NCBI RefSeq assembly: GCF_003851885.1
Contig: NZ_BHZE01000014.1
Location: 1-64,000 of the forward strand
Source: Thermaurantimonas aggregans
Lineage (GTDB): Bacteria; Bacteroidota; Bacteroidia; Flavobacteriales; Schleiferiaceae
DNA: 64,000 nt
Direction of reading: 5' to 3'
The notes beneath the pieces are model-generated. The model saw nothing but the letters and a program-made list of their open reading frames with translations. It was not told the DNA's origin and did no database searches. The position numbers were made by a program, and so were the translations under genes. This document shows positions 3,632 to 46,873 of the stretch, piece by piece. Position 1 is the first letter of the stretch, and the number at the start of each line of letters is the position of its first letter.

Positions 3632-3716
3632 GGCTCGTAGGAAAATTTTTTTTGTGGTGTGTGCCTGAAAAACTTTTTGAAACTTTCTAATTAATTAGCG
3701 AAAATAGGGTAATAAA

Positions 3717-4560: not shown

Positions 4561-4580
4561 AATAAAAAAACAAAGAAAAA

Positions 4581-4606
4581 TAAAAAATGGCCCGCAGAAC
4601 GGGCCT
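4581..4606 (-). terminator. Intrinsic terminator of lepA
   Basis: Inverted repeat GGCCCG (4589-4594) and CGGGCC (4600-4605) with a 5-base loop, followed on the minus strand by a T-rich tract. It lies just downstream of the lepA stop. Confidence 0.85.
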
Positions 4607-4611
4607 GTTTG

Positions 4612-25601: not shown

Positions 25602-25640
25602 ACGTTGCTATAATCAAAGGATTTTTTGGCCTGAGATGAA

Positions 25641-26384
25641 TTAAGAAACTGCCTGTGCCCTGAGCGATTCAGGAATTTCGATATCAAAATTTTTCTCGAG
25701 ATGTTTTATGGGATTCTTATAATATTCAGCACTGCGCTCTTTAATGGAGTCAATGGTAATTTTCACCCGACCGCTACCGCGCGAACCTTTACCACCCAAA
25801 TAATCGTCTTCTAAGAGCATCAGTCCACTGAAGATGGTATTTACATATTCTTTTTCGTCGTCTTTTACACCATTAGCTTCTCCTTCAAAAACATTAATTA
25901 CAATTTCAAGGGGAAACTCAGCACCTGCAGGAACGCGTTCGATTTGGCGTGGCATAGCAGCAGATGTGATTCGGTCAATCACCACTTCCATTTTTGTTTC
26001 TGTGTAGGGCATATCTGTATTTTGGAACTTTTCCGGATCATCCAAAATCTCAGCGTCTCTAAAAATTACTCTTGAGGGGCGTGGATTATTTGCTTCAGCT
26101 TTTCCAAAAAGTCGAGCAGAAATATTATTTACATCTGACGATGAAATCCATTTTACATTATTCATATCTGCTCTAACAATCGACCCATCTCTTACGTCAA
26201 TAAGACTTCTTATTTTTCCTTTTAGAGATGACCCTGGAATATAGGGTTTTCCACTGATGGGATTTCGTATCACAATATTATCCGGTGCACCAATGGAAAG
26301 TGGTGAAAATGTGCCACCTATTGTTAAACCACTTAAGGTTTTAATTTTACCGGTGATGATGATTTTTGAACGTAACTTTAACAT
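25641..26384 (-). CDS. csm3: Type III-A CRISPR backbone RAMP and target RNase Csm3
   Basis: A 247-residue Cas7-like subunit that forms the Csm filament and cuts target RNA every 6 nt. LSGLTIGGTFSPLSIGAPDN carries Asp35 at the position of the family's catalytic Asp, so RNase activity is expected. GSSLKGKIRSL (~52-62) and GGKGSRGSGRVKI (~200) are the RAMP glycine motifs. It lies 14 bp after csm2 in the operon. Confidence 0.95.
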   Translation of the reverse strand: MLKLRSKIIITGKIKTLSGLTIGGTFSPLSIGAPDNIVIRNPISGKPYIPGSSLKGKIRSLIDVRDGSIVRADMNNVKWISSSDVNNISARLFGKAEANNPRPSRVIFRDAEILDDPEKFQNTDMPYTETKMEVVIDRITSAAMPRQIERVPAGAEFPLEIVINVFEGEANGVKDDEKEYVNTIFSGLMLLEDDYLGGKGSRGSGRVKITIDSIKERSAEYYKNPIKHLEKNFDIEIPESLRAQAVS

Positions 26385-26398
26385 ATTCTTAAATTTTA

Positions 26399-26863
26399 TT
26401 ATTTTCCACCATAATATTTGTGATAAGCCAAGATGGCCTCAATGAGACTTACGAAATTTATAAAGTTTTTTTCTTCGGTTAGATTCACTTGTCTAAATAT
26501 ATTTTTTAAAGCATTATAGAATGTCTTTCCCGCGTTGCTATTACCTTCATTAGTTTTTCGAGCTGCGTTATAAGCAAGTTTTGGCCTTAAGAGTTGGATA
26601 TTTTGTTTATTCTTTTCTACTCCGTTTAATTGAATTCTTTTTAATTCACCGTAAAAATTTCTTAGTTGAGAAGTAGATAACTTTTCTCTTGTCGCGAGGT
26701 GCTCTCCAAATTTTTCACAGAATTTGTCTGCTTCTTTGTCCATTCCATTGGTAATCCATTCAGTTTTAACATTCCATTTCTCAGTCTGTTGATTTACTTC
26801 TTTTTTATTATTCGATTGATCTCTTTTTGGGTTAGGACTGTTTGAAGTGTTATTTGGTGCCAT
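26399..26863 (-). CDS. csm2: Type III-A CRISPR small subunit Csm2
   Basis: A 154-residue mostly helical protein. After an Asn/Ser-rich disordered N-terminus (~1-35), the Csm2 helices follow (LSTSQLRNFYGELKRIQ, LLRPKLAYNAARK, then FVSLIEAILAYHKYYGG). It lines the belly of the Csm complex. I placed the start at the ATG at 26863, 14 bp after the csm1 stop; an upstream GTG (26896) would overlap csm1. Position between csm1 and csm3 supports the call. Confidence 0.9.
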   Translation of the reverse strand: MAPNNTSNSPNPKRDQSNNKKEVNQQTEKWNVKTEWITNGMDKEADKFCEKFGEHLATREKLSTSQLRNFYGELKRIQLNGVEKNKQNIQLLRPKLAYNAARKTNEGNSNAGKTFYNALKNIFRQVNLTEEKNFINFVSLIEAILAYHKYYGGK

Positions 26864-26877
26864 GATATTAAAAAATT

Positions 26878-29463: not shown

Positions 29464-30164
29464 GCAGATATTACTTTATCTTCTGTTTCTTTCTTCTTTT
29501 TTAACATCCGTAAGCTTCCAAAGCCGTGGCTTACTCCCTTTCCCAGTCCTAAGTAGTCGGGCATAAAGACGTTGGTGGTAAAGCGCACGTTGAATGCCTT
29601 CATTCCTACGCCTTTGTATTTGACCGATACTTCCTCAGGTAAATTGATGAATTTGACTTTTAGGGGTTTATCGATTTTCCAATCGATACCTTTGGCCATT
29701 GACAATATATTTCCGATCAGAATTTTTTCTAAAAATTCTATGCGCTCTCCTGCGCCTTCAATGGCATTGTATTTTTCATAATTCTCTTCATTGAGGGCAA
29801 GCCAGCGATTTATATAGTATTCAAAAGAATAATCCCAAACGTTAAAAGTAATTTGTCTGAGAATCAGGTCGTGTATTTTCAAGTGTAATTCTCGATCACT
29901 GATGGAAATTTTCCAGGAGGGTTGTTGAAAGAGATGTGTGATTTCGTCAGTTCCGTCGTCGATGCAGAAAATGGCAGCATTGCCTCGTACGGTTTTATAT
30001 TGAATTCCAGGATATTCGTAATAAAAACCACCTTCAGGTCGATGATTGTGAAAACCTATGTGCTCGAGACCTACTTTTTTAATAACCGCCCCTCTGAAGG
30101 CAGGTATTTCATGCGCAGCTATTTGATTCTGAAATACTACCAGTAGGGTGCGTACTTTTTTCAT
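29460..30164 (-). CDS. cas6: CRISPR pre-crRNA endoribonuclease Cas6
   Basis: A 234-residue RAMP. The C-terminal glycine-rich loop GKGVSHGFGSLRML is the Cas6 signature, and the rest has the two-ferredoxin-fold layout (FNVRFTTNVFMPDY). It is the only cas6 in the window, first in the csm operon, so it may supply crRNAs to both the Csm and Cmr complexes. A promoter element lies 30 bp upstream, and an inverted repeat CTACCAGTAG occurs inside its first codons. Confidence 0.88.
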   Translation of the reverse strand: MKKVRTLLVVFQNQIAAHEIPAFRGAVIKKVGLEHIGFHNHRPEGGFYYEYPGIQYKTVRGNAAIFCIDDGTDEITHLFQQPSWKISISDRELHLKIHDLILRQITFNVWDYSFEYYINRWLALNEENYEKYNAIEGAGERIEFLEKILIGNILSMAKGIDWKIDKPLKVKFINLPEEVSVKYKGVGMKAFNVRFTTNVFMPDYLGLGKGVSHGFGSLRMLKKKKETEDKVISA

Positions 30165-30255: not shown

Positions 30256-31395
30256 TCACAGTTGTTTCATGTATCCATATCCTACAGCAGTTTTTGCACC
30301 GATGCCGCGTTCTTGTAGAGCTTCTTTGAGAAAGCCTGAAGTTACCGAAAGCATATCCCCCCTTTTTGCCCCTAACTTGATATTTTCATTCTCCACGCCT
30401 TTGCGCAAGCCTACCATAAATTGAAAAGTGAGGTTTTCAACGGTAAGGAAAATGATAGGCACGGGGCTTTGATAATCCGCAGGCGGTTGAAATTTCGGGC
30501 TATTTACATCATATTCATAATAATTCGGATAGTGAGGATTCATTATATCCGCTTTGATGCAACCTTGCGGGCTGTGGGTGGGGTAGGCATCAAAGAATAT
30601 AATATCTCCTTCCTTTTCAGTAATTTCAGGAAAGCGATATTTTGATAAATCTTTCCCAAATTCGCGCTTATCTTCATCAAAACAACGTTTGTAAAAAGTA
30701 GTCATCCGTCTTTTTTGACCGTTTTCCTCATATATTGTTTCTTCTCCACATCCAAAAATGTCACACATTTCTTTTGAGTTGTGAAATAATAAGGCTTCAC
30801 TATTTGCCTTATTACCTTGCAAAGTTGTAATCATATAACTTCTCAATACGCCTTTAATTGCGCTTGCAGGGATATAAGGAAATCCATACACGTGATGTAA
30901 CGAAATAGACGTTTCAAACACAGAGCCGCTACCCAAACCTACGGTTAATCGCCAGTCGGGTTGGAATTGCAGTTCATTCTTCTGCTTGTTGTCATACACT
31001 TTGGGCAATAAATTACCGCCTGTGAGTTGCAAAGCGTTGTGATGATGGCGAGCGATGAAACGTTGGTAAAAAGGTGTTTTTTGCCAACCTTTTTCTTCTT
31101 TTTCAAAAATATCAATTATAGAAACATCTTCAAGTCTATTCTTTTTACCCGCAGTCTTTTCAACTACTTTTTCAACATTAATCTTCTTGATAACAAATTT
31201 CTTTCTGTCTTTGTCATCTTCGTTGTTTACCCTCTGAGTTTCCGTCCAAAACCTCTTCCTTTTATGCAAAAAAGAATAGAAGTTTTGGGCGGTTTCCTGT
31301 GACGAAACATTTTTAACTTCTCTTTCTATGCCCATAAGTTTACCTAAATCCTGTAAAGAGTTGGCCGTTTGTTGCCTCTTGTCTTGCTTTGCCAT
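30256..31395 (-). CDS. cmr6: Type III-B CRISPR RAMP protein Cmr6
   Basis: A 379-residue Cas7-like subunit that caps the Cmr complex near the crRNA 3' end. The GLGSGSVFETSISLHHVYG region (~170) and PYIPASAIKGVLRSY (~190) are Cmr6 hallmarks, and GAKTAVGYGYMKQL closes the protein. The first ~110 residues are a charged Lys/Glu-rich extension not needed for the core fold. It is the last gene of the cmr operon, with its ATG 2 bp after the intended stop of cmr5. Confidence 0.92.
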   Translation of the reverse strand: MAKQDKRQQTANSLQDLGKLMGIEREVKNVSSQETAQNFYSFLHKRKRFWTETQRVNNEDDKDRKKFVIKKINVEKVVEKTAGKKNRLEDVSIIDIFEKEEKGWQKTPFYQRFIARHHHNALQLTGGNLLPKVYDNKQKNELQFQPDWRLTVGLGSGSVFETSISLHHVYGFPYIPASAIKGVLRSYMITTLQGNKANSEALLFHNSKEMCDIFGCGEETIYEENGQKRRMTTFYKRCFDEDKREFGKDLSKYRFPEITEKEGDIIFFDAYPTHSPQGCIKADIMNPHYPNYYEYDVNSPKFQPPADYQSPVPIIFLTVENLTFQFMVGLRKGVENENIKLGAKRGDMLSVTSGFLKEALQERGIGAKTAVGYGYMKQL

Positions 31396-31397
31396 AG

Positions 31398-31826
31398 TTA
31401 TTCTGATTTAGCGAACCTACGTAACCAATTGAACAAGGCTAATACTTCAGTGGTGCATTGGATTAAGTCCTTTGCCGTTGCTGAAGTTGTTAGATGTGTC
31501 ATCAGTTGCTCGTCAGTATTTGGATTGAGTGAAAGCAAGCCATATTATGAATGTGTAAGCCATTCGCGGATATTTTTTAAAACCTCGCCATTTTTTCCGC
31601 TACCTTTCTTAGAGTACAAAAAAGCCAAAGTGTTTAATAATCCATTGGTTTTGATATAAGTGGGTACTTTATCAACAATGGCACTATACTCGTCTTTTGC
31701 CTTCTTTTTACGTTTTTTATCTTCTTCGCTGTCAGTTTCAAGCGAATTGTATTTACTCGCACACTCCCACGCAAATTTTGCTCTTGCCTGGGCGATGCTT
31801 TTCATGGTTGATAGATTGTTAGGCAT
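31398..31826 (-). pseudogene. cmr5: cmr5 (type III-B small subunit), interrupted by an in-frame stop
   Basis: The first 93 residues (AQARAKFAWECASKY ... VPTYIKTNGLLNTLAFLYSK ... NIREWLTHS) are clearly the helical small subunit Cmr5. A TAA at 31545-31547 then stops translation. Past it the same frame stays open for 48 codons and encodes the family's expected C-terminal helix (TEVLALFNWLRRFAKSE), ending at 31398, 2 bp before cmr6. A one-base change in TAA would restore a normal 142-residue Cmr5. So this is a recent nonsense mutation or a base error in the sequence. A re-start at the ATG 17 codons past the stop could give a 34-residue C-terminal piece. It overlaps cmr4 by 8 bp. Confidence 0.88.
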
Positions 31827-32847
31827 TTTCTACCTCCTTCTCTTTTTCAGTTAAAAATTTAGTTCTCACAATTCCTTTGCCTAGGGTAGCGTTGCCGCCG
31901 ATTTGGACAATGTTGGGTATTTCTTCAAAAAACGTTTTTACGTCTGCTGCTGTCATGCGATCTTCTCTTGATGAAAATTCATCTGAAAACATCACCAACG
32001 AATACATCACGCTTTCGGCGGGCAGGTATTCTTCGCTGAACAATGCCCCTTGCTGTACCGTACCCGTTTCGTTGTTGATTTTGGTGCGGGTAATGACTTC
32101 GGTAGCAAGGGTTACAAAGTCGCGGAAATTTTCATCTGAAAGAATAATGATGTCTTTTTCCATTTTCGTAGCCCAATAACTTGTATCAGTGGCAGAAAAG
32201 ATATTTTCTTTCAACCATTTAGCTAACTTATCTACATTACCGTTGGCTGTATCTTTGGTAAGTGTAAAAACAAATTCTTCTAAATAGGCTTGTTGCTTAC
32301 TGTTGTTATTTTTTAGAATTTCTGCTTTTGAAGTGGTTTTATCTTCCTCTGTGTTAAAATCATCCGCAGAAAAACTGGTTGTAATCCTCGCCAACTCCAA
32401 ATCCGCAATAAACTTCTTAATTACCCTTGGGCAGGTAATCCACGCAAATACGCCGTACAAGGACTTGACGGGAAACAACAACAAACGGGCATCGGTTATC
32501 GAAATACAACCAGAAAATTGTGAATTTTCTTTGAAAGTTTCTTTTAAAAATTCTTTTGCTGAAAAGCGTTTTTTCACATCAAATCCCAATTCTCCATCAT
32601 CATAACCAAAAGCTTTGTTGATGGTGATTAGGTTACTTTTTGCTTTGCTATCGTCTTTTTCAGACAATACTAATTTACTTTCAAAAGCCTCTCGTAAAGC
32701 ACCTTTGAGCGATGAGGCTTCTATTTTTGGGAAATTGGTGTGCCTTTCGCGTTGGATAGGCAAATCTACGATACCCAGATCTGAGCCGCTGCCTACGTGC
32801 AGGGGTGTTTCGCAGATAAGAAATAAAGGTCTGGCATTTTTGTACAT
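31819..32847 (-). CDS. cmr4: Type III-B CRISPR backbone RAMP and target RNase Cmr4
   Basis: A 342-residue Cas7-like backbone subunit. The N-terminus CETPLHVGSGSDLGIVDLPI matches Cmr4, with Asp28 in VDLPIQRE at the catalytic position, so target RNA cleavage is expected. IEASSLKGALREAFE and NATLGKGIVRTKF are the glycine-loop motifs. It lies 49 bp after the CARF nuclease gene inserted in the operon and overlaps cmr5 by 8 bp. Confidence 0.94.
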   Translation of the reverse strand: MYKNARPLFLICETPLHVGSGSDLGIVDLPIQRERHTNFPKIEASSLKGALREAFESKLVLSEKDDSKAKSNLITINKAFGYDDGELGFDVKKRFSAKEFLKETFKENSQFSGCISITDARLLLFPVKSLYGVFAWITCPRVIKKFIADLELARITTSFSADDFNTEEDKTTSKAEILKNNNSKQQAYLEEFVFTLTKDTANGNVDKLAKWLKENIFSATDTSYWATKMEKDIIILSDENFRDFVTLATEVITRTKINNETGTVQQGALFSEEYLPAESVMYSLVMFSDEFSSREDRMTAADVKTFFEEIPNIVQIGGNATLGKGIVRTKFLTEKEKEVENA

Positions 32848-32896
32848 AGTGTTTTATGGTTTTAGTGTTTTAGGACAGGATTTCAGGGTTTATGGA

Positions 32897-34261
32897 TTAT
32901 GTTAAGATAATATCTATCAATTGAGAATCTTTAATATCTGATTTGAAAAAGTCTTGATAAATATGTCTTTCTTGACTTTGCTTACTTTTTTGTATTTTTA
33001 GAAATTTACATTTGAAGTCAATATTCATATCAAATCTTTCTTTCAATTGCATTACTGTTTCCACATTGACACTATTTTCACTTTCACCATAAAGAATTAA
33101 CCATATTTCGTTAATGTTTTCTAAGGATTTAACCCTACTAGGAAAATGCGCTAACAAATGTGTCCAACTATCATAAGTATTTTCCAATACGGAAGCAGGT
33201 TTTACTTCAATACCAATTTTAGAAGTTTCATTTGGCTTTATGACCAAATCGATATCGCCACCATCTTTAGTTTTTACACTATGCTTTACCTTATTACAAT
33301 CAAATTTTGTTTGGTAATATTTGTACAGTTTATATTCTACAAAATAACCCATAATAGTACCTGTTAACGGACTTGCTTTATCTTTAAGATACTCACTTAA
33401 AATTATTCCTAAAGGCGTTAGTTTGGTATTATCCTTAAACACCAAATTAAGTTCACGCATTTCTTCAACATCTTTTAGATATTTTATATTATTTCTTTTA
33501 TTTTCATTAAACAACAAAATTGTATATTTTTCAATTATTTCCCAATCAAAACCAACGGGCATTGGGGGCAAATGAATAATCTCTGAACTGTCTTCATATA
33601 AATAGTAAATTGACAAGTGATATAACTGTGCTAAAATTGTAATGGGTGGTATTAAGGCTTTATAGCCACCTGTAATATTAAGTAAAGTGTTTTCTGAACC
33701 CGCGGTAGAAGTAATAATTTTAATTTTTTCAATAAGGTTTAGCAGACCTTGTTCTGAATATTTTTTTAGGTTAAGATTTTTTATAATATGGGCTGACGAA
33801 AAGTTATGGTCTTTTATTTTTTCAATGATGGTAGCATTTTCAGCAACTTCTTCAAAGGCTACCGTATAACCTTTCCTTCTCAAATACCCCGCTATCACCT
33901 CTGCACACAAAGGCGACAAAATGGTATCGGTGCAAAGTAGGTGAATGGTTAAGGTTAATTCTTCGCCTTCTTTCAACGATTTTCTTAATTCCTTTTCAAT
34001 GGCGGTAATGCTGCTGATTTCGGCGCAGTTGGATTTTGCATTTAAATATTCTATCAGTAATTGAAGAATCCCTCTTTCGCCATATTCGCCCTTTACATAA
34101 TTGATATAACTATCTGCGGTTGTGCCTGAATTTTCAAAAAAAGAGCATTTTTCAAGTTCTCTCAGTTGTTCTCTAATTTCATCTGTAAGTCCATAATTAT
34201 TGGTTTCTTTCCAATTAGAAATTAAAGAAGTGCCAACAGTAGTAAGGATAGTTTTATTCAT
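32897..34261 (-). CDS. CARF-PD-(D/E)XK nuclease within the cmr operon
   Basis: A 454-residue predicted cyclic-oligoadenylate-activated nuclease. Residues ~1-215 are a CARF domain of the APE2256 kind, with TTVGTSLISN at the N-terminus and the ligand-site motif LLNITGGYKALIPP (~195). A linker with possible winged-helix character follows. Residues ~300-420 carry a PD-(D/E)XK core, GGDIDLV (~335) and IGIEVKPAS (~348). Binding cOA would switch on DNA and/or RNA cleavage. It sits between cmr3 (5-bp spacer) and cmr4, so it is made with the complex. The exact family and substrate are unsure. Confidence 0.82.
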   Translation of the reverse strand: MNKTILTTVGTSLISNWKETNNYGLTDEIREQLRELEKCSFFENSGTTADSYINYVKGEYGERGILQLLIEYLNAKSNCAEISSITAIEKELRKSLKEGEELTLTIHLLCTDTILSPLCAEVIAGYLRRKGYTVAFEEVAENATIIEKIKDHNFSSAHIIKNLNLKKYSEQGLLNLIEKIKIITSTAGSENTLLNITGGYKALIPPITILAQLYHLSIYYLYEDSSEIIHLPPMPVGFDWEIIEKYTILLFNENKRNNIKYLKDVEEMRELNLVFKDNTKLTPLGIILSEYLKDKASPLTGTIMGYFVEYKLYKYYQTKFDCNKVKHSVKTKDGGDIDLVIKPNETSKIGIEVKPASVLENTYDSWTHLLAHFPSRVKSLENINEIWLILYGESENSVNVETVMQLKERFDMNIDFKCKFLKIQKSKQSQERHIYQDFFKSDIKDSQLIDIILT

Positions 34262-34266
34262 CGTGC

Positions 34267-35343
34267 TCAGTTGTTTGGGGTTGTACCAATGTAAAATTTT
34301 CCGAAACCTTGTTTTTCAAAGCCTTCAATTTCGTTGAAAGGATTATTTTGGTACAAGTGCTCAAATACTTGCTGAGGATTTTTTGCTTTAAGGTAGTACA
34401 CACTTCCCGCAGGAACTGCTTTGTACATCGGTTTGGGTGCTTGCTTTGCCATATCAAACCCACCTGCAAACAGGGGTTTTCCTATTGCATAAGTGAGTAG
34501 TTCAAAATCATTGGAATTGAGAAAAGCCTTTGGGCAGTAGCCATTTTCTAAAATTGCAGGTGTATTTAGATAAACCCTTAAAATATCAGACTTTAAATTC
34601 TCAGTTTTTAAATGAAGATTAGGTACTTGACTTTGGTCAATATGTTTATAAAAGACAGATTTGTTTTCACCTCCAAAACGAACTATACCTGTATCATCGA
34701 GAGTTAAGTTTTCGTATTCAACGGCTATTTTCAATTTATTTTTTTCAGCATTATCAAGCCTTTGCATATTCACCCTATACATTTTGCCTTCGGCTTCACC
34801 TGATGTTGTACGGCTGTTATTATCCCGTCCTATGCCGATTTTAGGCTCAGAAGTGATGTATTTTGAAAGCGAATCGGCAAAAATTTCACTTTCGTTATAG
34901 TTTAAGTAATGCACAAAACGATTTTTCGATAAAATTCCCTTGTTCAGTTCGTCTACCTTTTTGCGTAGCGGTGTGTATAAAATTTCTGGACATTCATTAG
35001 AGCCTGTATTGAAAGGTTCACGTTTTAAGAAATAGATTTTTTTTGCCTCGTTTTCGTCTTTGTCTTTGAATTTTACTAAATCCAAAGGCATTGTAAAATA
35101 GGGTGTATTATCAATTAACAGGTAAATGTTGTGAAGTATAAAATTTTTTGTATTTTCTATAACCTGTGTTGGGTCTGTAATGCCTTGTTGAAACATATAC
35201 GCACTACGCAAAGCCCCATAAATTACCGAAGGCAATGGCGGAAAAATACCGTCAGCCCATACATCTTCCCCCATAGAAAAAGGCTTGCCGTCTCTGAAAA
35301 ACAGTGTATCTATTGCCTCAATATGTATCGTTTTTTTAGTCAT
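34267..35343 (-). CDS. cmr3: Type III-B CRISPR RAMP protein Cmr3
   Basis: A 358-residue Cas5-like RAMP that anchors the crRNA 5' tag against Cmr2. EAIDTLFFRDGKPFSMGED and FPPLPSVIYGALRSAYM at the N-terminus are Cmr3 signatures. The C-terminal GFDMAKQAPKPMYKAVPAGSVYYL is also typical. It overlaps cmr2 by 8 bp and precedes the CARF nuclease gene by 5 bp. Confidence 0.94.
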   Translation of the reverse strand: MTKKTIHIEAIDTLFFRDGKPFSMGEDVWADGIFPPLPSVIYGALRSAYMFQQGITDPTQVIENTKNFILHNIYLLIDNTPYFTMPLDLVKFKDKDENEAKKIYFLKREPFNTGSNECPEILYTPLRKKVDELNKGILSKNRFVHYLNYNESEIFADSLSKYITSEPKIGIGRDNNSRTTSGEAEGKMYRVNMQRLDNAEKNKLKIAVEYENLTLDDTGIVRFGGENKSVFYKHIDQSQVPNLHLKTENLKSDILRVYLNTPAILENGYCPKAFLNSNDFELLTYAIGKPLFAGGFDMAKQAPKPMYKAVPAGSVYYLKAKNPQQVFEHLYQNNPFNEIEGFEKQGFGKFYIGTTPNN

Positions 35344-37123
35344 TGCCTTGCAGTTTCCGGTTGATAAAATCGCAAATACTTAGTGAAGCATTGAAGTTTT
35401 TGATATTGCGTTTGTTCGGTTCATAGACTTGCATTACTTTTTTAGCCATTTCTTTTGCTTCCTCTTTGGTGGCTTTGTTTTTGGCTCGCAACACAAGTCG
35501 CTCAATTTCAAAATTCATAATTTGAATAATTCTGGTATCTTCGTTCTCTGCCAATAGTTCCATTTCACTTTGCAAAACCGTAATGTAATTGCTGCTGAAA
35601 TGTGTTTCCAAACCCTCTCTTACTTCTCTCATCAGTTCTGAGTACCAAATGTCTTTGCCGTCTTTCATTGCTCTAAACGGTAAAACCGCTTTATGTATCT
35701 CGCCCGATTTTTTGAGTACAGCGATACCGAAACTGTCTTTAGTATCGGTATCTTTAGCTTCTTTTTCCATTCTTCTTGCCCAGTTTAGAACTTCCGTGAG
35801 GGGTGTTTTGTAGTGAGCAATGGCAATGCCTGCCGAAAAGGTCATTTCTTTGTTGTCTGTAATTTGAAACCTGCCATCAGAAATTTTATCACTGACTTGT
35901 GCTTTAAACTGTTCTCGCAGATGCTTCATTACTTCAAAGAGGTAGTGCAAATTCACAAAGCCCAGATAATCATCGCCACCTGCATACACAGTGCGACCTT
36001 TTTTAGTTGTATCAGCACCTAAGCCATCTACATAATTTTTAGCGTAGTCGGCAAAGCTCGAAAGCAAGCCAGAGAGGTGTTTGTGAAAATCGCGTAATTT
36101 ATTTTCCCGGTCAGAGAGGTATTCGCCCGAAAGCCAAGCCCCCATACTGTCGGCATCAAAAAGCAGGATAGCGTAGTATTTGGTGAATTTTAAGCCTTTT
36201 TTTCTGAGTGCATCACGCAGTTTTTTATGGGCTTTTTGGGCAATTTCTAATTGTTGCTTGCAGGGAATATTTTTTGAAGTGAGATTTTCATCATAAAAGA
36301 ACTGTTCATTGAATTGTGTCCAATCTTTTCCTTCTAACTTCAAGCATTTTTCTTGTTCTGCTGCTTTCAAAATATCAAAGATGTCTTCAAAATCTTGAAA
36401 TGCTTTCGGGGCTTCTTGAATGCTTTTGAGTAAGGCAATATCTGTGGTAGAATCAAACGACTTTTTTTTACTGTCAAACGGATAAAATCTTTTGATAAAA
36501 GAAATGGCGGACAAGCCCTCCTTATCATCTATCATATCGCTTTTGATTTGTGCGACATTGGTAGCAAAAGAAGGTAAGGGGGCTCCGTTAAACACCAACG
36601 CATTTTGCTCACCACTCAGAGAGCATTTACGTCCTTGTTCGGGGTATTGGGTGAAGGTACGTGCGTTTTTGACCGCCCCGAGCAATCGGTCTGCATTGTC
36701 GTAGGCGGCTGCATAGTTGTTGTTTTCAACCGGTACGAACACCCAAAAAGTAGAAAAATAGTCTTTGAGTTGGGCTTCAAAGGCTGTTTTGATTTTGGCG
36801 TATTCGGTTGTGCCGATTTTGGTTTCGGCTTTTAGCCTCAAAACTTCTAACTCATCCGCAACGGATTTGGCTATTTTTTTACCCAAGTCTTTTAGTTCTT
36901 GGTCTGTTTTGCTAAAACTGAAAAAAGCCAATAGGCGGTTAGGCATTGACTTGGATATTTTGGAAGGGAAGATAATAGTTCCGCCTTCTCGCGTAATAGC
37001 CTCATATACTTTGCCTACAAAAGCCGAAAGCATACGACTCCCCGCCCACAAATCTTGTGTTTTGCGTGCCTGCGAGATAAAACTCTGCACGGGCGTAAGA
37101 GTGAAAAGGAACAGGTGGGTCAT
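35336..37123 (-). CDS. cmr2: Cas10/Cmr2, type III-B signature subunit, without HD domain
   Basis: A 595-residue Cas10. It begins directly at the first palm (LFLFTLTPVQSFISQARKTQ), which in Cmr2 proteins with an HD domain comes after ~200 residues; no HD nuclease is present. The active Palm has VYAGGDDYLGFVN at ~380-390, and FSAGIAIAHYKTPL follows. So it should make cyclic oligoadenylate but not cut ssDNA. It overlaps cmr1 and cmr3 at its ends. Confidence 0.95.
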   Translation of the reverse strand: MTHLFLFTLTPVQSFISQARKTQDLWAGSRMLSAFVGKVYEAITREGGTIIFPSKISKSMPNRLLAFFSFSKTDQELKDLGKKIAKSVADELEVLRLKAETKIGTTEYAKIKTAFEAQLKDYFSTFWVFVPVENNNYAAAYDNADRLLGAVKNARTFTQYPEQGRKCSLSGEQNALVFNGAPLPSFATNVAQIKSDMIDDKEGLSAISFIKRFYPFDSKKKSFDSTTDIALLKSIQEAPKAFQDFEDIFDILKAAEQEKCLKLEGKDWTQFNEQFFYDENLTSKNIPCKQQLEIAQKAHKKLRDALRKKGLKFTKYYAILLFDADSMGAWLSGEYLSDRENKLRDFHKHLSGLLSSFADYAKNYVDGLGADTTKKGRTVYAGGDDYLGFVNLHYLFEVMKHLREQFKAQVSDKISDGRFQITDNKEMTFSAGIAIAHYKTPLTEVLNWARRMEKEAKDTDTKDSFGIAVLKKSGEIHKAVLPFRAMKDGKDIWYSELMREVREGLETHFSSNYITVLQSEMELLAENEDTRIIQIMNFEIERLVLRAKNKATKEEAKEMAKKVMQVYEPNKRNIKNFNASLSICDFINRKLQGND

Positions 37124-38144
37124 AGTCGCTCAAGATTTAATTTTTCTTGAAGTTTTTCATTGAACTTTTGAGTTGCGGCATCAAATTTTTCTAATACATC
37201 TGTAGGAATAGACTTGCCTTTTTTCAAATTTTCATTGCCTATACCTGACACATACTTATAGGGAACAAATAAGATGTACCCCCTGTATCCTCCATTTTCT
37301 TCATCTAAAAATAAAAAATATGATTTTGAGTGTCTTTCTAAGAAAGAATTACTATCTTGTACGATAGGTGCGGCTATGTATCTCCTTGTATTATAAGTAT
37401 GCCCGTCACCCATATTTTTCCTTGCATGAATATAAGCATCGCCAATGATTTTTAGCGCATTATCGTAAGAACGACTGCTAACTTCTTTTGCACTAAAAAG
37501 CTTTACTGAATCTGAAAGGCTTGTATAATTAGATTTTGAATTATTCGTTTTTAGCAAATTTTTCCATTTTGGTAAACTTTGAGTTATATCTATCTCATTA
37601 TTTTCTTTGTTTTCTACCGCTTTAATAATTTTTATTTTTCCAAAACCATTTCTACTCTTAGCCCCCAATCCGCCTACATAACACATTACTACAAAAGCTT
37701 TAATTACTTCATCCACTTTTGTTTCATTTGTAAATCTTAGACAGATGTCAAACCTTTGTCTTTCATCAAAAAAAGCATGTGTAAATCTGTCACGATAATC
37801 ATAAACACCGTAAGCAAGATAATTCAAGATATTAACAGGCGTATTTCTTGAAAGTGGATAGTTTCCCCTATGTTCAGGGAATTTGTCTTTAGTGCTTGGC
37901 TTTAAAAAATTTTTATCTTTTGGGCAAGTAATCACCACCTTACTCCTCTGAGCAGGTTCAGTCCCCCCAAAAATCTCGCTTTCTTTTGCTTCAATTCTTC
38001 AAGGCTCAAATGCCCGTTCATCGCTCGCCACCAAAATCTCAATGCTCCCTTGATGGATGGTGGTCTCAATTCAGGTACCCTTTGGTCTGCTCCCGAAAGG
38101 AACATTGGTGTGATGGTTTCGCAAGTGAAGGTGATTGTTTTCAT
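37120..38144 (-). pseudogene. cmr1: cmr1 (type III-B RAMP), disrupted by a -1 frameshift
   Basis: The first part reads MKTITFTCETITPMFLSGAD ... PSIKGALRFWWRAMNG, a clear Cmr1 N-terminus, but runs to a TGA at 37932. Moving to the next frame at an A-run (T4 on the plus strand, 37984-37987) restores ESEIFGGTEPAQRSKVVITC and the rest of Cmr1 (GGLGAKSRNGFGKIKI and on to 37120). One missing A would explain the break: with it the gene is exactly 342 codons. This may be a real mutation, tRNA slippage at A-AAG, or an assembly error. The downstream GTG at 37938 is probably not a true start. It is first in the cmr operon and its stop overlaps cmr2. Confidence 0.88.
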
Positions 38145-38237
38145 TCTCTGCAATGATTGAGCGTATATTCTTTATTTTGATTTAATATTTACATAACTCA
38201 TCACAAAAATTATTTTAAAAATCAAATTTTGCAATAT

Positions 38238-39278
38238 TTATTTTTCGGTATTTTCTATGATTCGCGTGTAGCGGTGTAGCATTTTCATGCTTTCGAGCAT
38301 GATTTGTTTTCGAAAATGATCAGGGCTTAAGATCTCAATCTGGCCGCCAAAAGACAATAATTGATTTTTCAACTCTTGATTGATGATGACTTGTAGTTGT
38401 ATCTCGGCACCGTTTTCACTTTCTGATTTCTGAATAATTTTTTGGCTTTGATGGATGGGCTTGGTTCGAATGTAAGGCAATACATTTTTATCAACCCATA
38501 TTCGTATTTTCTCCGGAGTTGCACCTTCAGGGCGCGTCACGCCTACTATGTCTTCAAAATACTCCGTGAAATCGATTTCCGTATTTGGCATGGCTTCCTT
38601 TGTGCTCAGTTCATATGATTCTATTCGATCCACAGCCAGATTCATAATTCTGAGCTCCGGCCGGTGCATGGCTTTGCCAAATACGAACCAGCGGCCGTTA
38701 TAATGGCGCATATGCCAGGGATGAAATTCAAATTGCTGCTTTTCGTCGGTGAAGGGTGCATAGAGTACATCTGCTTTTAGACCTTTCAGCACCGAGTACA
38801 CGATTTTAGGAACGAGTTTTACATTGTGGTAATCTACATTTAAGTCGTAGGTGATTTTATTGTACTGTTTAGCGACGCGTTCTTCGCGCAATTCGGTTAG
38901 GGCAGTAAGTTTTTCAAAGATGTCAGCATCTATTATGGCTTTGAAGTCGCCCAAAGTACTGAAGTAGAGTCGATAGAGCTCTTTGTCGCGTTCGCTGAGC
39001 TGTCGGGTCCAAGAAGCATTTTCTTGAATGTCTGGACTAGCAATTTTGTAGATGATTCTTCGGCCTTTTCGCACTTTATCGACCACGATTTCACCGCCTT
39101 TCTCGATTTCTTCGATGTCGTTGTAGAAAGTCCGGCGGGTGATGGGTTGATAGCCATTTCGCATGAGCCAGGTATTGATTTGTTCGACCACATCCTCTAC
39201 GCAGTATTCGTGAAAAGGGTGCTGAAGTATTTCGACAATCTTCTGCTGACGCTTAAACGCTGGATAAGTTTCTGCCAT
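38238..39278 (-). CDS. WYL-domain transcriptional regulator
   Basis: A 346-residue regulator. Residues ~8-75 are a winged helix-turn-helix (ITRRTFYNDIEEIEKGGEIV). Residues ~150-220 are a WYL-type ligand domain (LKADVLYAPF ... HPWHMRHYNGRWFVFG), and a WCX-like C-terminal part follows. WYL proteins often control CRISPR and other defence operons and may bind nucleic acid or nucleotide ligands. It lies 93 bp upstream of cmr1 on the same strand and is divergent from the HNH cassette. Two abutting palindromes in its promoter (39302-39329) suggest autoregulation. Confidence 0.88.
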   Translation of the reverse strand: MAETYPAFKRQQKIVEILQHPFHEYCVEDVVEQINTWLMRNGYQPITRRTFYNDIEEIEKGGEIVVDKVRKGRRIIYKIASPDIQENASWTRQLSERDKELYRLYFSTLGDFKAIIDADIFEKLTALTELREERVAKQYNKITYDLNVDYHNVKLVPKIVYSVLKGLKADVLYAPFTDEKQQFEFHPWHMRHYNGRWFVFGKAMHRPELRIMNLAVDRIESYELSTKEAMPNTEIDFTEYFEDIVGVTRPEGATPEKIRIWVDKNVLPYIRTKPIHQSQKIIQKSESENGAEIQLQVIINQELKNQLLSFGGQIEILSPDHFRKQIMLESMKMLHRYTRIIENTEK

Positions 39279-39866: not shown

Positions 39867-39896
39867 TTAATTGTTTAACCTTAAAATCTAACAAGT

Positions 39897-40529: not shown

Positions 40530-40561
40530 AAAAATTGTTTTACTTCTAAATTTCAACAGCC

Positions 40562-41612: not shown

Positions 41613-44084
41613 TTACTCCCAAATACTATCTATATTTTGACGAAAAACATTGTAAGCTACTGTATATCCATCTTTATTTGACTGTCCGAACTGAATAGCG
41701 GCTACCTGACCTCTATCCACTATATTTTTAAATCGCAGGATTGAATCTTGACTGAAACGATTCACCTCTACTAAGACCATCTGATCGCTGATTTTAAATG
41801 CAAAATATTTTTCACCCAATTTTGATTTTATATTTTCTGGAAACAAAAATTCAATATTTATTTCATCAGGTAATTTTATAAAGTTTCGTAGTAAATTTTC
41901 TAAAGTTTCTTCATAGTAATAACTAATATTGTAAATAGTGCCACTAAAAATCTTTCCCAATGTAAAAAATAGAGGATGTTTTATTCCCGTGCTTCTTTTC
42001 AGTGCATTTGGAAATAGAAACACATGTTCTTTAGCTCGCGTAATGGCTGTGTACAACCATCTAAGATCATCAACTCTCAGATTTGTAAGTAATACATTCT
42101 CCCATTCACTGCCTTGTGCTTTATGGCATGTAAAAGCATAGGCATATTTTACATATAAAGAATTTATGTATTGATCAGTATTTATTAAATTGTTAACATA
42201 GTCAATAAATTCCTCATAATGATTATGGATGATTTCTCTTTGCTCTTTCAAGTTTAGAACTTTTTCTCCTTTTATTTCTGCACAAAATTTAAATTTTGCT
42301 CTGTCTATAAAATATTTATAATTGATCAGGCGTTGATTTATGATAAATCGATTACTTCTAGATTGATGTCCTTTGTCAAAAAGACTAATCAGGTCAAAAT
42401 CCTCTGTATTGTCAAGTATACATTTTACGTTAATAATTTCTTTTGAATTTGATAGATGAACATCTAAGTCGAAAAAGGGCAGAATTACACCAATTTGAAA
42501 ACGAAAATAGTACACATACACTAATTCGCTCTTTTTAAAATTATTTACATAAAGTATATCACCATTGTAAATTTCATATTTGTAATTGTTTTGTACAGAA
42601 ATCAACCGTTCATTACTATTGAAAATATCTTTGTAATTAAAGGAAACCCTTATATTATGATTACAAAAATCAGCAGCATTATTGCTTAATGTTACAACAG
42701 CTACACTGTTATTTTTGGAGTAAATACTTTTAAATATGTTAATTAAAGTGTCCAAATCACTGTAATCCAAAGTTATATTTTTTTCAAACCGAACGGAGTT
42801 GTATTTTCTATATTCCGAAATCAATGATGGTAATGTTATTTTTTGAGAAGTGCCTTCATTAATTTCTTGAATTTTATTACGTAAGAAAAGTGAAAATTCT
42901 AAAATGCTGTTTTCTCCTTTAAAACGATGTGGTGTATATAATTCATACATCATCGTATTTAGTTTATATTTATCTTCTATAAAATTTGGAATTAGCGCAT
43001 AGGGTTGAGTTGATTCGATGGGAGGCAATTGGTAAATATCTCCTATAAAAATTAATTTTAAGGCTTTTTCCTTGCATATTTTCAATAGGTCATTTAATGT
43101 AAATCCTGTACAATTTACATATACTCTTCCCTTTTTCTTATATTCATCTACTTTCTTTTTAATTTCATCATCATCTAATAAATCACTAAGCATACTTGAC
43201 TCATCAACGATACCTAAATGATTTCCAAAATCACTTTTCAGTTTTGTCATAGTGATTAATGAAAATTCTGCTTCGTCCGAATCAATGATTGATGAATTGG
43301 AACTCTGTAATTCTTTGTTTATAGAAATTCCTAAATTCATTTTATAAATCTTTTTGTGCAATGTGGTAGATTTATACCCGGTTCTTTCCTCTATATTTCT
43401 ACTGGCTTTGCCGGTAGGAGCCATTAATGCTGCTGATTCTTCCTTGAAAAGTTCATTAAGCATTTTTATGACATACTTTACAAGTGATGTTTTACCAGTG
43501 CCAGCAGCTCCTCTTAAGATAAATATCCGATATTCTGGAGATTTCATGAACGTAAAAAGCATCTCCAAAGCTTCTTTTTGCTCTTCACTAAGCTGATCTT
43601 CTATTGAAGAAAAAAATTTTTTAAATTCTTCGTCGTTTATTTGTTTTTTTTCTGTTTCTAAAAGTACTTTGAAGTTAAATACGGTAGCTATTTGAGCCAT
43701 CAAGGCAAGTAAATCACTGTCGTTATTTATTGTTGGTTCCTCTGAGCTTTTATTGAGCTTTTGATATAATATTTTTAATAGTCTGCTTGTGGGTGTAGTT
43801 TCGGGTTGGTAAGCTATTTTGAAGTAAGAAAAGATTCTTCTGTCTTTTAAACGTATGACAAAGCGACCACTCAAGAGTTGTTCGGTCTCTGGATTTTCTG
43901 AGCCGTCACATGCATAATAAATTACCTCTGCTTTTGGTATAAGGCTAGTGAGCAAAGTGGCGACCATATTCTCACCTAATTGATCACTCAGAAATAATCC
44001 TGCATTTTGCACACCTTCGTAAAATGCAGCATTAAGTGATTGCTTTTCTTTTTCGACTACTTCGTAGATAAAAAGTTTCTTCAT
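41613..44084 (-). CDS. SF1B (RecD/Pif1-like) helicase in the CARF effector operon
   Basis: An 823-residue helicase. The N-terminal ~165 residues match nothing I know. Motif I RGAAGTGKTS is at ~195, motif II GIVDESSM at ~295, motif III GDIYQLPPI at ~350, and the C-terminal RecA-like domain carries AFTCHKAQGSEWENV (~658) and YTAITRAKEHVFL (~682), like RecD2 and Pif1 5'-3' helicases. The last ~140 residues are a separate unknown domain. The ATG at 44084 lies 16 bp after the previous stop; a longer reading would overlap that gene. It is the last gene of the Card1-Csx1 operon. A link between cOA effectors and DNA unwinding is inferred only from position. Confidence 0.85.
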   Translation of the reverse strand: MKKLFIYEVVEKEKQSLNAAFYEGVQNAGLFLSDQLGENMVATLLTSLIPKAEVIYYACDGSENPETEQLLSGRFVIRLKDRRIFSYFKIAYQPETTPTSRLLKILYQKLNKSSEEPTINNDSDLLALMAQIATVFNFKVLLETEKKQINDEEFKKFFSSIEDQLSEEQKEALEMLFTFMKSPEYRIFILRGAAGTGKTSLVKYVIKMLNELFKEESAALMAPTGKASRNIEERTGYKSTTLHKKIYKMNLGISINKELQSSNSSIIDSDEAEFSLITMTKLKSDFGNHLGIVDESSMLSDLLDDDEIKKKVDEYKKKGRVYVNCTGFTLNDLLKICKEKALKLIFIGDIYQLPPIESTQPYALIPNFIEDKYKLNTMMYELYTPHRFKGENSILEFSLFLRNKIQEINEGTSQKITLPSLISEYRKYNSVRFEKNITLDYSDLDTLINIFKSIYSKNNSVAVVTLSNNAADFCNHNIRVSFNYKDIFNSNERLISVQNNYKYEIYNGDILYVNNFKKSELVYVYYFRFQIGVILPFFDLDVHLSNSKEIINVKCILDNTEDFDLISLFDKGHQSRSNRFIINQRLINYKYFIDRAKFKFCAEIKGEKVLNLKEQREIIHNHYEEFIDYVNNLINTDQYINSLYVKYAYAFTCHKAQGSEWENVLLTNLRVDDLRWLYTAITRAKEHVFLFPNALKRSTGIKHPLFFTLGKIFSGTIYNISYYYEETLENLLRNFIKLPDEINIEFLFPENIKSKLGEKYFAFKISDQMVLVEVNRFSQDSILRFKNIVDRGQVAAIQFGQSNKDGYTVAYNVFRQNIDSIWE

Positions 44085-44100
44085 TTTTTTTAGTTTTTTT

Positions 44101-44481
44101 CTATAAGGAATATTTTCTAAATTGAACAAATTCGAACAGAGTTACTTTACGCGTTACATCGCCAAAAGCTTCTTCTACCACGCGCCTTTGGGTTGTAGAG
44201 GCATACACTTCAGCTCCAAGGTCAATCAGACGTGCCACAAGGGCTAGGCAAAAGGTAAATTCACCCATTACATGAAAAGCTAGGGCATACAGCGGATCGT
44301 ATTTAGTCTTTAACATGTCGATGAAACGTTCGACTTCATCGATTATTTGTTCCGATGTCCATGATGGATCCACAACCGGAAAGGGCTCATCGACAATTTC
44401 TCCAAAGGAATTTTTGGCTGTTTGTCTCTGTCGGGCTGACCACTGAGCAGAGGGGTGGTTTGATATGTTAATTAATGTCAT
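44101..44481 (-). CDS. Small CRISPR-island protein, possible ring nuclease or CARF-like
   Basis: A 126-residue protein. NISNHPSAQWSARQRQTA at the N-terminus, ALAFHVMGEFTFCLALVARL in the middle and VYASTTQRRVVEE then form alternating strands and helices like a small Rossmann fold. Conserved-looking polar residues (SNHP, GEFTF, STTQR) cluster at strand ends where a ligand would bind. Ring nucleases that degrade cyclic oligoadenylate are often such stand-alone CARF-like domains coded beside effectors, so this is a candidate. It overlaps csx1 by 14 bp, which implies tight co-translation. Family membership is inferred, not proven. Confidence 0.6.
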   Translation of the reverse strand: MTLINISNHPSAQWSARQRQTAKNSFGEIVDEPFPVVDPSWTSEQIIDEVERFIDMLKTKYDPLYALAFHVMGEFTFCLALVARLIDLGAEVYASTTQRRVVEEAFGDVTRKVTLFEFVQFRKYSL

Positions 44482-45835
44482 CTTTCAGAATTTCTAAAAG
44501 TTGCATGTAAATATTTTTAAGTCTTTTATTATACTCACCCGGTTGGTTTCTGCCAAAATGACCATGATTCAGAGTATTTCTGATTTCACTCAACTCTAAA
44601 ACTATGGAATGAAGTTGTGTAAAATTAGGTGTATTATTTTTAATAGTTACTCCCAGTTCTTTGTTGTTTTTAAGTTCTTCCTTTTGCCAATTTTCAGCTG
44701 GATACTCCCCAACATTTAGCAGTGATGAAATAAAACTATATCGCTCTATGTATTTTTTATATTCAGAAGTTGCATTTATTGAATAATTAAACTGGTTTTT
44801 ATCTGTTATTTTGGTATGCTCCATATGGGCAATAAGACCTTCGTTTAGTAGAGTAGCGGCTTGTTGGATAAGGTTTTTTTGAAGGCAAAAGCGGGCAGTA
44901 TAAAGGCAATTCAAGGTATTATCTTGAGCATTGTATGTGCCTGAGGGAAAAACGTTTTGAATTTCCGTAACAATAGGTTTAAAAAGATCGGTTATTACTT
45001 GAATGATGCTATTGTCTGATGCTGTTTCGTTAAAAGAAAATTGAAGTATTTTGTTTAAATGTTTACCTTTATTTATATCTGGTCCGTTGCAGATAAAAAT
45101 GTTTTCAGAAAAATTTTGAAGATTTATTATTAACTGGTTAAGATTGTTCAGTGCTTCATTATTGCCTTTAAAAAGTTTTCCAAGTTCGCGGGTAATTTCT
45201 TGTGTGAAATCTTTTGCATCGACGGCATATCCAAATTTTCGGAGTTGATATGCGAAGTCGCTCAACTCCATGAAGAAGCTGTATATGGTTAAATCGATGA
45301 GAGGAGCAATCTGTGTATTCTGGTCGCGACCTTCAAAATTTCCGTATGTAATGGATTTTATGTTAATGTTCAATCGATGGCGCGCATACTGACTTAAGAC
45401 AGTGAACAGGATTGGAATCGATCGAAAGGCATGTGTTACGTCGATGTACACTTCGTCGTTTTCGTGTAGCTGATGGATCATAATGGCAAATAATTGCCAT
45501 ATTTCCTGTTCGTTGCGGCCATCGATGGGGAAGATAACAGGTTCGATTCGGGCTCTGGTTCCGAAGTTGTTTAATCTCTTTTCAAGGCCGTTATTAAGGA
45601 TGATTTGTCCTGTATTTCTATCCTTGTGTCCATTGTCAAGCCAGTTTCGAATTTTAGAATCTTCCGTCATAAAGATGACGATGGAATCGGCTTCATTCCA
45701 CTCTTGGGCATTAAGCATTCGCAAGGTGGAAATTTGCACGTATTTTTCAGGTTCGCTGTCTGTGTAAGTTTCATTTCCGTATTTGCAGGGTACATAGTCG
45801 CTCGTACCGAGAAATGAGAAAAATTTCCTTGACAT
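44468..45835 (-). CDS. csx1: Csx1-type CARF-HEPN ribonuclease (TM1812 family)
   Basis: A 455-residue type III effector. The N-terminus SFLGTSDY and the CARF motif DVTHAFRSIPILFTV (~135) place it in the TM1812/Csx2 family. A C-terminal HEPN domain carries RNTLNH (R-x4-H) at ~420, the catalytic pair of an RNase. Cyclic oligoadenylate bound in the dimeric CARF would activate nonspecific RNA cleavage. It lies 3 bp after the Card1-like gene and overlaps the small downstream gene. Confidence 0.9.
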   Translation of the reverse strand: MSRKFFSFLGTSDYVPCKYGNETYTDSEPEKYVQISTLRMLNAQEWNEADSIVIFMTEDSKIRNWLDNGHKDRNTGQIILNNGLEKRLNNFGTRARIEPVIFPIDGRNEQEIWQLFAIMIHQLHENDEVYIDVTHAFRSIPILFTVLSQYARHRLNINIKSITYGNFEGRDQNTQIAPLIDLTIYSFFMELSDFAYQLRKFGYAVDAKDFTQEITRELGKLFKGNNEALNNLNQLIINLQNFSENIFICNGPDINKGKHLNKILQFSFNETASDNSIIQVITDLFKPIVTEIQNVFPSGTYNAQDNTLNCLYTARFCLQKNLIQQAATLLNEGLIAHMEHTKITDKNQFNYSINATSEYKKYIERYSFISSLLNVGEYPAENWQKEELKNNKELGVTIKNNTPNFTQLHSIVLELSEIRNTLNHGHFGRNQPGEYNKRLKNIYMQLLEILKDDIN

Positions 45836-45838
45836 ATT

Positions 45839-46873
45839 TTATGTATTTTTGATCAATTGAATTATTTTATTTCTTTGTAAATCTGTGTTTCCAAAAAGCT
45901 CAATATTGCCCATTAGGCTGGCTTTTAAACGCAAATTATTTCTCGTTTCTTCGCTCAGTGTTTCGAGTTTGGCTAGCGTGATTAAAATAGAGCGCGCTGA
46001 TAGACCAAATCTTTTGTTTAGACTTGCTACTTTATACATTTGGTTTAAAAGCGTTGTAGATTTAATTTTAATAGGATCATGTACTGTTTTACATTCAATT
46101 ACAAATGGTTGATTTTTGTAGAGAACTAACACGTCGATCTCATTGTCGTTCATGGCACTTTCAACGGTGTGAGTAGGATTTATTTCTTTGAGTTTAATAC
46201 CCAGTTTTATGTATTTATCTTCTAAATTTAATTTTCTTTTTATGCTTAGATAAATATATTGTTCAAACCAATCACCGTACAAATTTCCGTTAATACTTCC
46301 GTCTTGATTTTTAAATTCTAATGGCAATTTTTGAGTATTAAACTCGCTTTTCAAAAGATATTGCCATACATTGTTGCACCATTTGTCGCTTTTAATTTCA
46401 GTTTTACATTCGCAATTCATTCCATGTAAATTCAGATACTCTTCAGCACCCATAAAGTAAGTGAATTCTATAAACTCAGCGGATTTATTTGAATACACTT
46501 TTTCATAGCCTTTTGCGCTGAAAGGGACATAGTAAAATTCAGTATTTTTTCGGTTGGAGAAATAATACCACATGCCTATCGACATGAGCTTAGTTCCACC
46601 AGTTACGTTTACTAAATAGGTAGCTTCTTCTCTATTTAAAACATCAACTTCGGTATATTTTGAAAGATTCTGGTGCAAATCATTTTCTGAAACGATCACT
46701 TTTGTGTATCGCTCAGATGTAATTCCAGCAGTGGTAGCTAAGGTTTCACACTTGCCTTTGGCTTCCATTTTTTGAGTCGTGATAAAAACATAGTGGTCTA
46801 TGTCTTTCAGTTCCTTAATAAGCAAATAGTTAGGCATGGGTTGGTCGGAGATGGTCGATATGAGGATACGCAT
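45839..46873 (-). CDS. Card1/Can2-like CARF-PD-(D/E)XK nuclease
   Basis: A 344-residue effector. TISDQPMPNYLLIKELK and VNVTGGTKLMSIGM (~93) resemble the CARF domain of Card1/Can2 (DUF1887). NEIDVL (~246) and FVIECK (~259) form the PD-(D/E)XK nuclease core. Known relatives are activated by cA4 and cut ssRNA and ssDNA or nick DNA. It is the first gene of the operon with csx1, the small protein and the helicase. Upstream is a 750-bp AT-rich gap where the island ends. Confidence 0.87.
   Translation of the reverse strand: MRILISTISDQPMPNYLLIKELKDIDHYVFITTQKMEAKGKCETLATTAGITSERYTKVIVSENDLHQNLSKYTEVDVLNREEATYLVNVTGGTKLMSIGMWYYFSNRKNTEFYYVPFSAKGYEKVYSNKSAEFIEFTYFMGAEEYLNLHGMNCECKTEIKSDKWCNNVWQYLLKSEFNTQKLPLEFKNQDGSINGNLYGDWFEQYIYLSIKRKLNLEDKYIKLGIKLKEINPTHTVESAMNDNEIDVLVLYKNQPFVIECKTVHDPIKIKSTTLLNQMYKVASLNKRFGLSARSILITLAKLETLSEETRNNLRLKASLMGNIELFGNTDLQRNKIIQLIKNT

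Follow-up and report, generated by a model that had tools for sequence, protein, structure and literature searches.

A RecD-like helicase gene behind csx20 in Thermaurantimonas aggregans and its possible link to type III spacer acquisition

The closest described counterpart of the gene reported here is DbRecD, a RecD-like helicase encoded in a CAPP_B type III operon of Dysgonamonadaceae; in that study (Zabrady et al. 2021, PMC8211822) DbRecD binds DbCas1 in a yeast two-hybrid assay, and the CAPP proteins, which are primase-polymerases, are described as associating with Cas1-Cas2. A further point of comparison is PDC-M16A/M16B, a phage-defence candidate in PADLOC. Here we describe a helicase gene in a 64,000-nucleotide stretch of Thermaurantimonas aggregans DNA (contig NZ_BHZE01000014.1, positions 1 to 64,000 of the forward strand; hereafter the window), where it stands at the end of a minus-strand operon behind genes for Card1/Can2-, Csx1- and Csx20-type proteins.

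In common with DbRecD, the window gene belongs to a type III operon of a Bacteroidota member and its product is a RecD-like helicase; its genome too has CAPP_B, Cas1 and Cas2. Compared by description, from the accessible text, DbRecD is a proximal operonic partner of Cas1-CAPP, whereas the window gene stands beside csx20 only; the cas1-CAPP-cas2 module lies on contig C5 of the genome and none is present in the window. The window protein also carries about 157 and 128 residues beyond the DbRecD kind. The original prediction for this DNA had treated helicases as foreign to type III systems, which agrees with the accessible part of the 2025 CRISPR classification (PMC12669027), where no helicase is seen among type III ancillary proteins, and disagrees with the recurrence of such genes in CAPP_B loci and with the binding of Cas1 by DbRecD. 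The window helicase seems to be a diverged form of a type III companion that recurs but has drawn little notice, and not the first helicase in such loci. In the literature collection that was searched, the only one, no paper pairs Csx20 with the word "helicase" or names PDC-M16. Our favoured explanation, which we hold tentatively, is that the operon is a type III ancillary cyclic oligoadenylate (cOA) response cluster whose helicase is a diverged RecD-like enzyme working with Cas1-CAPP_B-Cas2 in spacer acquisition.

The card1-csx1-csx20-helicase operon

The operon consists of four uninterrupted open reading frames (ORFs), the last of which is divided into three parts:

45839..46873, minus strand: Card1/Can2-like protein with CARF domain and PD-(D/E)XK nuclease, 344 residues (Pfam)
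44468..45835, minus strand: Csx1 protein with CARF domain and HEPN RNase, 455 residues (NCBIfam, PADLOC, HEPN motif)
44101..44481, minus strand: Csx20 ring-nuclease family protein, 126 residues (PADLOC, NCBIfam)
41613..44084, minus strand: RecD/Dda-like superfamily 1B (SF1B) helicase, 823 residues (Pfam, NCBIfam, PADLOC, motifs, AlphaFold/Foldseek)
43614..44084, minus strand: orphan N-terminal domain of the helicase, residues 1-157 (157 residues), without credible relative
42000..43613, minus strand: helicase core, residues 158-695 (phmmer envelope against the Algoriphagus type III helicase)
41613..41999, minus strand: orphan C-terminal domain of the helicase, residues 696-823 (128 residues), without credible relative

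A gap of 3 bp separates card1 from csx1, csx1 and csx20 overlap by 14 bp, and 16 bp lie between csx20 and the helicase gene; coordinates and family matches thus agree with the predicted four-gene operon, in which no overlap or gap exceeds 16 bp. The first product combines a Card1 CARF domain (CARF_Card1, 1.8e-29) with a PD-(D/E)XK endonuclease (Card1_endonuc, 1.7e-9), both above the Pfam cut-offs, and a motif search places a D...ECK stretch at 243; it belongs to Card1/Can2. The second has the CARF DxTHG and HEPN RxxxxH features of Csx1: it scores 34.9 bits against the NCBIfam DxTHG model (cut-off 21) and 65.5 against TIGR02221 (below its cut-off of 76.25), matches PADLOC CARF_HEPN at 4e-74 and carries RNTLNH at 419. 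The small CARF-like protein, suspected at the outset to be a ring nuclease, is identified as Csx20 by PADLOC (1.4e-31), while the NCBIfam Csx20 model gives 1.2e-7 and 32.1 bits, below its cut-off of 70. It is a predicted ring nuclease, cleavage of cyclic tetra-adenylate (cA4) having been demonstrated for another Csx20 member in the accessible part of PMC12409355. All three are ordinary type III ancillary proteins; what is unusual here is their occurrence together with a helicase.

The helicase ORF begins with ATG, and an alternative TTG at 44129 would add 15 residues. Its product matches AAA_30 and UvrD_C_2 in Pfam above cut-off. GAAGTGKT, DESSM, GDIYQLPP, HKAQGSE and YTAITR, located with patterns that we take to define the SF1B motifs, are all intact, so that the protein has the SF1B RecD-like core of the type III-linked helicases described below. 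The core is like those of RecD2, Dda and Pif1 (RecD2 sequence match 1e-10), and a Foldseek search with the AlphaFold model gives DSH9, Dda and RecD2 as best matches; most of the core is modelled confidently, except for weak stretches around 250-330 and 560-580. It is not a RecD2 equivalog by NCBIfam (126 bits against a cut-off of 500), and its N- and C-terminal domains are additions without match to RecD2. Both are modelled poorly: the predicted local distance difference test (pLDDT) score lies mostly below 55 in the C-terminal domain and is 51 for residues 1-160 modelled alone.

That these end domains lack known relatives, as first supposed, was borne out. For the N-terminal domain no credible relative was found in Pfam, PHROGs, plasmids (residues 1-161) or 345 genomes, of which five gave a match at E 0.05, namely the window itself and four partial matches of E 0.01-0.035. 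For the C-terminal domain none was found in Pfam, PHROGs or the same number of genomes; 27 of 345, the window's included, gave a match at E 0.05, the next best at 0.003, and these scattered partial matches are read as chance. Close relatives of the whole helicase were absent by peptide pattern from genome contigs and viral contigs. Relatives were further sought in three overlapping sets of genomes, 99 related ones, 395 from the phylum and 395 from the class, with matches listed at 1e-15 or 1e-20 and two candidates scored per genome in the 395-genome searches; apart from the window's own row, no match listed there or among plasmids starts before residue 130. One listed phage match starts at residue 67, and no place in plasmids or phages covers 80% of the protein. 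The 155-residue N-terminal extension of a Flavobacteriales helicase (L126, below) was considered as a relative of the N-terminal domain and ruled out, the extension being Csx20.

RecD-like helicases in CAPP_B type III loci

CAPP_B is the primase-polymerase of type III adaptation modules. GTDB genomes were scanned with an alignment of four CAPP_B proteins, and the best 80 of 180 confirmed loci were analysed; all counts out of 80 refer to these. Nearly all come from entries titled Bacteroidota, the others being L161 and L171 (Bacillota-type titles) and L193 ("bacterium" only). A RecD-like helicase match of at least 50 bits, counted here as strong, is present in 33 of the 80, in 28 as an ORF of at least 340 residues and in five solely as fragments of 89-222 residues; some fragments stand at contig edges. 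Where at least 3 kb of flank before cas1 is available, a helicase lies within 4 kb upstream of cas1 and on its strand in 26 of 60 loci; when short contigs are counted, the figure is 29 of the 77 loci with cas1, the extra three being at a contig edge. The gene before the helicase (n=26) is csx20 in 16 loci, a csx1-csx20 fusion in five, a Csx1/Csm6-like gene in three (an assignment made on one of them, L154), card1 in one and unidentified in one. The helicase therefore directly follows csx20 or csx1-csx20 in 21 of 26 loci (21 of 29 with the contig-edge loci), which is also its position in the window, directly downstream of csx20 on the same strand. The supposed tie between helicase and type III genes is real, in that many type III loci with CAPP_B have a RecD-like helicase gene placed after csx20 and before cas1. 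The gene is optional, since 11 loci have csx20 immediately before cas1 and no helicase.

Individual loci illustrate the arrangement. Algoriphagus (L037) has the order card1-card1-csx20-helicase-cas1-CAPP-cas2, with csx20 and the helicase gene overlapping by 4 bp. An uncultured Flavobacteriales locus (L126), the case with card1 before the helicase, contains an in-frame Csx20-helicase fusion at 3671-5572 (Csx20 in residues 30-145, 4.8e-38; helicase in 158-624, 7.9e-117) with cas1-CAPP-cas2 following 7 bp downstream; this fusion is known from a single contig of a metagenome-assembled genome, and a sequencing error is possible. Looser arrangements were also seen: in G204 csx20 and the helicase gene lie on opposite strands, 157 bp apart, and the 20 kb examined contain no match to cas1; in G196 it lies about 4 kb from csx20; in Rhodothermus it shares a region with csx20; and the Runella plasmid pSP2_2 has the order WYL-helicase-cas6-cmr. 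Separately, a Pif1-like helicase of 681-684 residues is encoded close upstream of cas1 in L135, L164 and L165 and elsewhere in the locus in L148. These four ORFs, whose identity was read from their sequence, reach 34-37 bits against the RecD references and were left out of the 33; perhaps the Pif1-like protein substitutes for the RecD-like helicase there.

Among the 394 genomes of the phylum sample besides the window's, a helicase match of 1e-20 or better occurs in 12, csx20 in 27 and both in seven (Fisher p 2e-6), one of which, G475, has them on different contigs; counted per genus, csx20 is found in four of eight helicase genera as compared with 20 of 170 overall (p 0.007). Related helicases also occur without any match to cas references in the stretch. 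Eight within the same order, one of them in the window's own genome, are termed housekeeping-type here; PDC-M16A-type helicase genes, several with an M16B-like partner, form another such set; and the class sample adds five genomes, none of whose helicases has a cas reference match in its stretch. In viral contigs none of 80 loci (the best 80 of at least 573) matches cas reference proteins; one of them, L218, holds a helicase and M16B-like pair. The original prediction expected the homologues to keep company with CARF genes, and this holds for one group, beside csx20/csx1, while many members of the wide family lie away from such genes.

PDC-M16 genes and the surroundings of the operon

In PADLOC the best match of the helicase is PDC-M16A, at 2e-73 and through the core. 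Three type III helicases match PDC-M16A more strongly (3e-83 to 5e-130), and since the models also match the housekeeping-type helicase of the same genome (5e-99), the label is unspecific. The C-terminal region of PDC-M16A, about 200 residues, has no counterpart in the window protein: the PDLC04475 match stops with the core (178-706 to 10-484 of 721). The window ORFs have no match to two M16B proteins. An M16B-like gene is present in 10 of the 80 CAPP_B loci, eight of them among the 33 with a RecD-like helicase (L174, L178, L194, L199, L202, L195, L124 and, weakly, L189; Fisher p 0.013). The copies of Algoriphagus, L174 and L178 are confirmed as PDC-M16B by PADLOC, the others being assigned by similarity to two references; the Algoriphagus protein has DUF7017 and TOTE S1/CSD domains. 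The PDC-M16 two-gene defence candidate is apparently embedded in CRISPR loci. WYL-domain genes occur within about 5 kb of PDC-M16A-type helicases at L030, L033, L114, L115 and L117.

The window contains two type III gene sets and a regulator gene at lower coordinates than the operon:

23032..30164, minus strand: type III-A (csm) genes with Cas10 and Cas6 (PADLOC on four genes; Rhodothermus csm matches)
30256..38153, minus strand: type III-B (cmr) genes, including those for Cas10 and a CARF7-type protein (PADLOC; Runella cmr matches)
38238..39278, minus strand: WYL-domain regulator beside cmr1 (Pfam WYL/WCX)

GGDD is kept in both Cas10 proteins, and in the Runella annotation the type III-B locus is likewise flanked by WYL genes. 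The CARF7-type protein (454 residues, 32897-34261), encoded inside the cmr operon, has a CARF part that matches CARF_RelE models. The cmr1 gene (37120-38153) is apparently split into overlapping ORFs of 272 and 73 residues in different frames, both matching Runella Cmr1, and appears to be a broken gene or an assembly error. Between the cmr and helicase operons (39492-41569) lie three plus-strand genes, for a 124-residue HNH protein with a weak likeness to IscB below cut-off, a 210-residue protein and a DUF4407 protein. The window has no match to cas1, cas2 or CAPP reference proteins, no CRISPR array was found in it, and a promoter and terminator scan gave a result near that of shuffled sequences. 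The cas1-CAPP_B-cas2 module of the same genome lies at one end of contig C5, where recR and priA are its neighbours, its CAPP_B matching PADLOC PrimPol at 3.8e-17; an 814-residue PDC-M16A-like match beside this cas1 was rejected as PriA. Contig C17 (L122) of the genome carries a second cas1, a CRISPR array and a 1260-residue ORF, and is probably a locus of another CRISPR type.

Placement and possible role of the helicase

We propose that Cas10 would make cOA, which would switch on Card1 and Csx1 to cut nucleic acid, until Csx20 destroys the signal. The product of the fourth gene would be a strongly diverged form of the RecD-like helicase carried elsewhere between csx20 and cas1-CAPP-cas2 and would partner in trans with the Cas1-CAPP_B-Cas2 encoded on another contig. 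By moving along and unwinding invader DNA it may provide single strands or ends for CAPP synthesis and for prespacer capture by Cas1-Cas2, and, if expressed together with csx20, it would share that gene's induction. The case for counting the window helicase among the type III kind is built on three things: its gene follows csx20, the genome encodes CAPP_B, Cas1 and Cas2, and the surroundings are of type III. In a tree of 54 helicases (ORFs below 340 residues or 100 bits omitted; the Runella helicase absent), one group of 31 rows, with support 87/98, takes in 29 of the 30 type III helicases, and the housekeeping-type helicases form another (100/100). A clade joining the window helicase to the type III group is allowed, at a cost of 1.23 log units (p 0.43 in the approximately unbiased test, p-AU). 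Orthology to the type III-linked RecD-like helicases is plausible.

A number of observations weigh against this interpretation. In the best tree the window helicase sits on a very long branch outside all groups, and clades with the housekeeping-type helicases (cost 1.67, p-AU 0.24) or, as the worst fit, with nine PDC-M16A-type proteins (cost 4.92, p-AU 0.074) are also allowed. The type III group itself includes L073 and L118, which have no cas match in the stretch, and leaves out the G196 type III helicase (L031). The two extra domains of the window protein are absent from all 26 type III helicases with which it was aligned. At 823 residues it also departs from the usual length of the type III-linked kind, about 465-545 residues without extra domains, to which L126 (633 residues, fused Csx20) and L031 (695 residues, C-terminal extension) are exceptions. 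The window gene is not adjacent to cas1, a convergent DUF4407 gene coming after it, and 34 of the 60 CAPP_B loci have no helicase upstream of cas1; the 11 loci noted above lack it as well. What precedes the helicase gene is almost always a gene for an effector or a ring nuclease, and position by itself is therefore no argument for adaptation over signalling. The control is on the side of the interpretation, with a contrast that is suggestive, not firm: of 27 csx20 stretches besides the window's, one has CAPP (L037, the L199 locus), and among the 26 CAPP-free ones, five of them shorter than 10 kb, a strong helicase is present in two as compared with 33 of the 80 CAPP_B loci (Fisher p 0.0015, for samples chosen differently and with relatedness ignored). 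Counting as well the three of the 26 that are Rhodothermus-type loci, in which the helicase is outside the stretch and about 11-13 kb from csx20, raises this to 5 of 26 and weakens the contrast (p 0.059).

A role confined to the cOA response, in which the helicase would unwind or strip DNA for Card1 or remove bound protein during signalling only, seems to us rather unlikely. It would fit the single Card1-Csx1-Csx20-helicase unit of the window, the 21 of 29 loci in which csx20 or csx1-csx20 is the gene just before the helicase, the L126 fusion and G204, where the helicase neighbours csx20 and 20 kb contain no match to cas1; on the other hand a relative binds Cas1, as the accessible portion of PMC8211822 has it, and the gene is rare in CAPP-free csx20 stretches (2 of 26, or 5 by the broader count). 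The original prediction had the helicase perhaps opening DNA for Card1, and here the link to Cas1 points to spacer acquisition instead: the coupling to the cOA genes is by position, and we favour the acquisition role. We consider it unlikely, and a little more so, that an independent defence helicase (PDC-M16A or another RecD-like protein) landed behind csx20 in a defence island and acts alone. The PADLOC best match, the long branch and the helicase and M16B-like pairs found away from cas references at L028, L030, L114, L115 and L116 speak for such an origin, but the PDC-M16A models are unspecific, no M16B-like gene accompanies the window helicase, its C-terminal part has no PDC-M16A model match beyond the core, the corresponding clade fits worst in the tree, and the gene shares the position of the type III helicases behind csx20.

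That the helicase is a chance neighbour or a gene in decay, and plays no part in type III immunity, is the least probable of the explanations considered. Its end domains are orphans, and the N-terminal one is uncovered by the matches listed in the 99, 395 and 395 genomes (overlapping samples with few candidates scored per genome); yet 823 codons are open, the tested motifs are intact, the gene lies 16 bp from csx20 and the same gene order recurs in other genera. A bolder extension of the acquisition role, which we regard as improbable, is that a cOA-controlled helicase couples the type III alarm to spacer acquisition. Csx20, which has a cA4-binding fold, forms a fusion with the helicase in one Flavobacteriales locus, and in many others the two genes are neighbours; the two proteins might work as one unit through which Cas1-CAPP-Cas2 is fed invader DNA only while cOA is present. 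The extra domains of the window helicase could then replace the Csx20 fusion as regulatory or nuclease parts.

How type III systems gain spacers, and whether this is coupled to an infection in progress, is poorly understood. A helicase recurrently encoded between a signal-destroying ring nuclease and cas1, and once fused to the ring nuclease, offers a concrete gene with which to test this. Alarm signalling and memory formation may be linked in type III systems, and the PADLOC candidate PDC-M16A/B may be tied to type III CRISPR.

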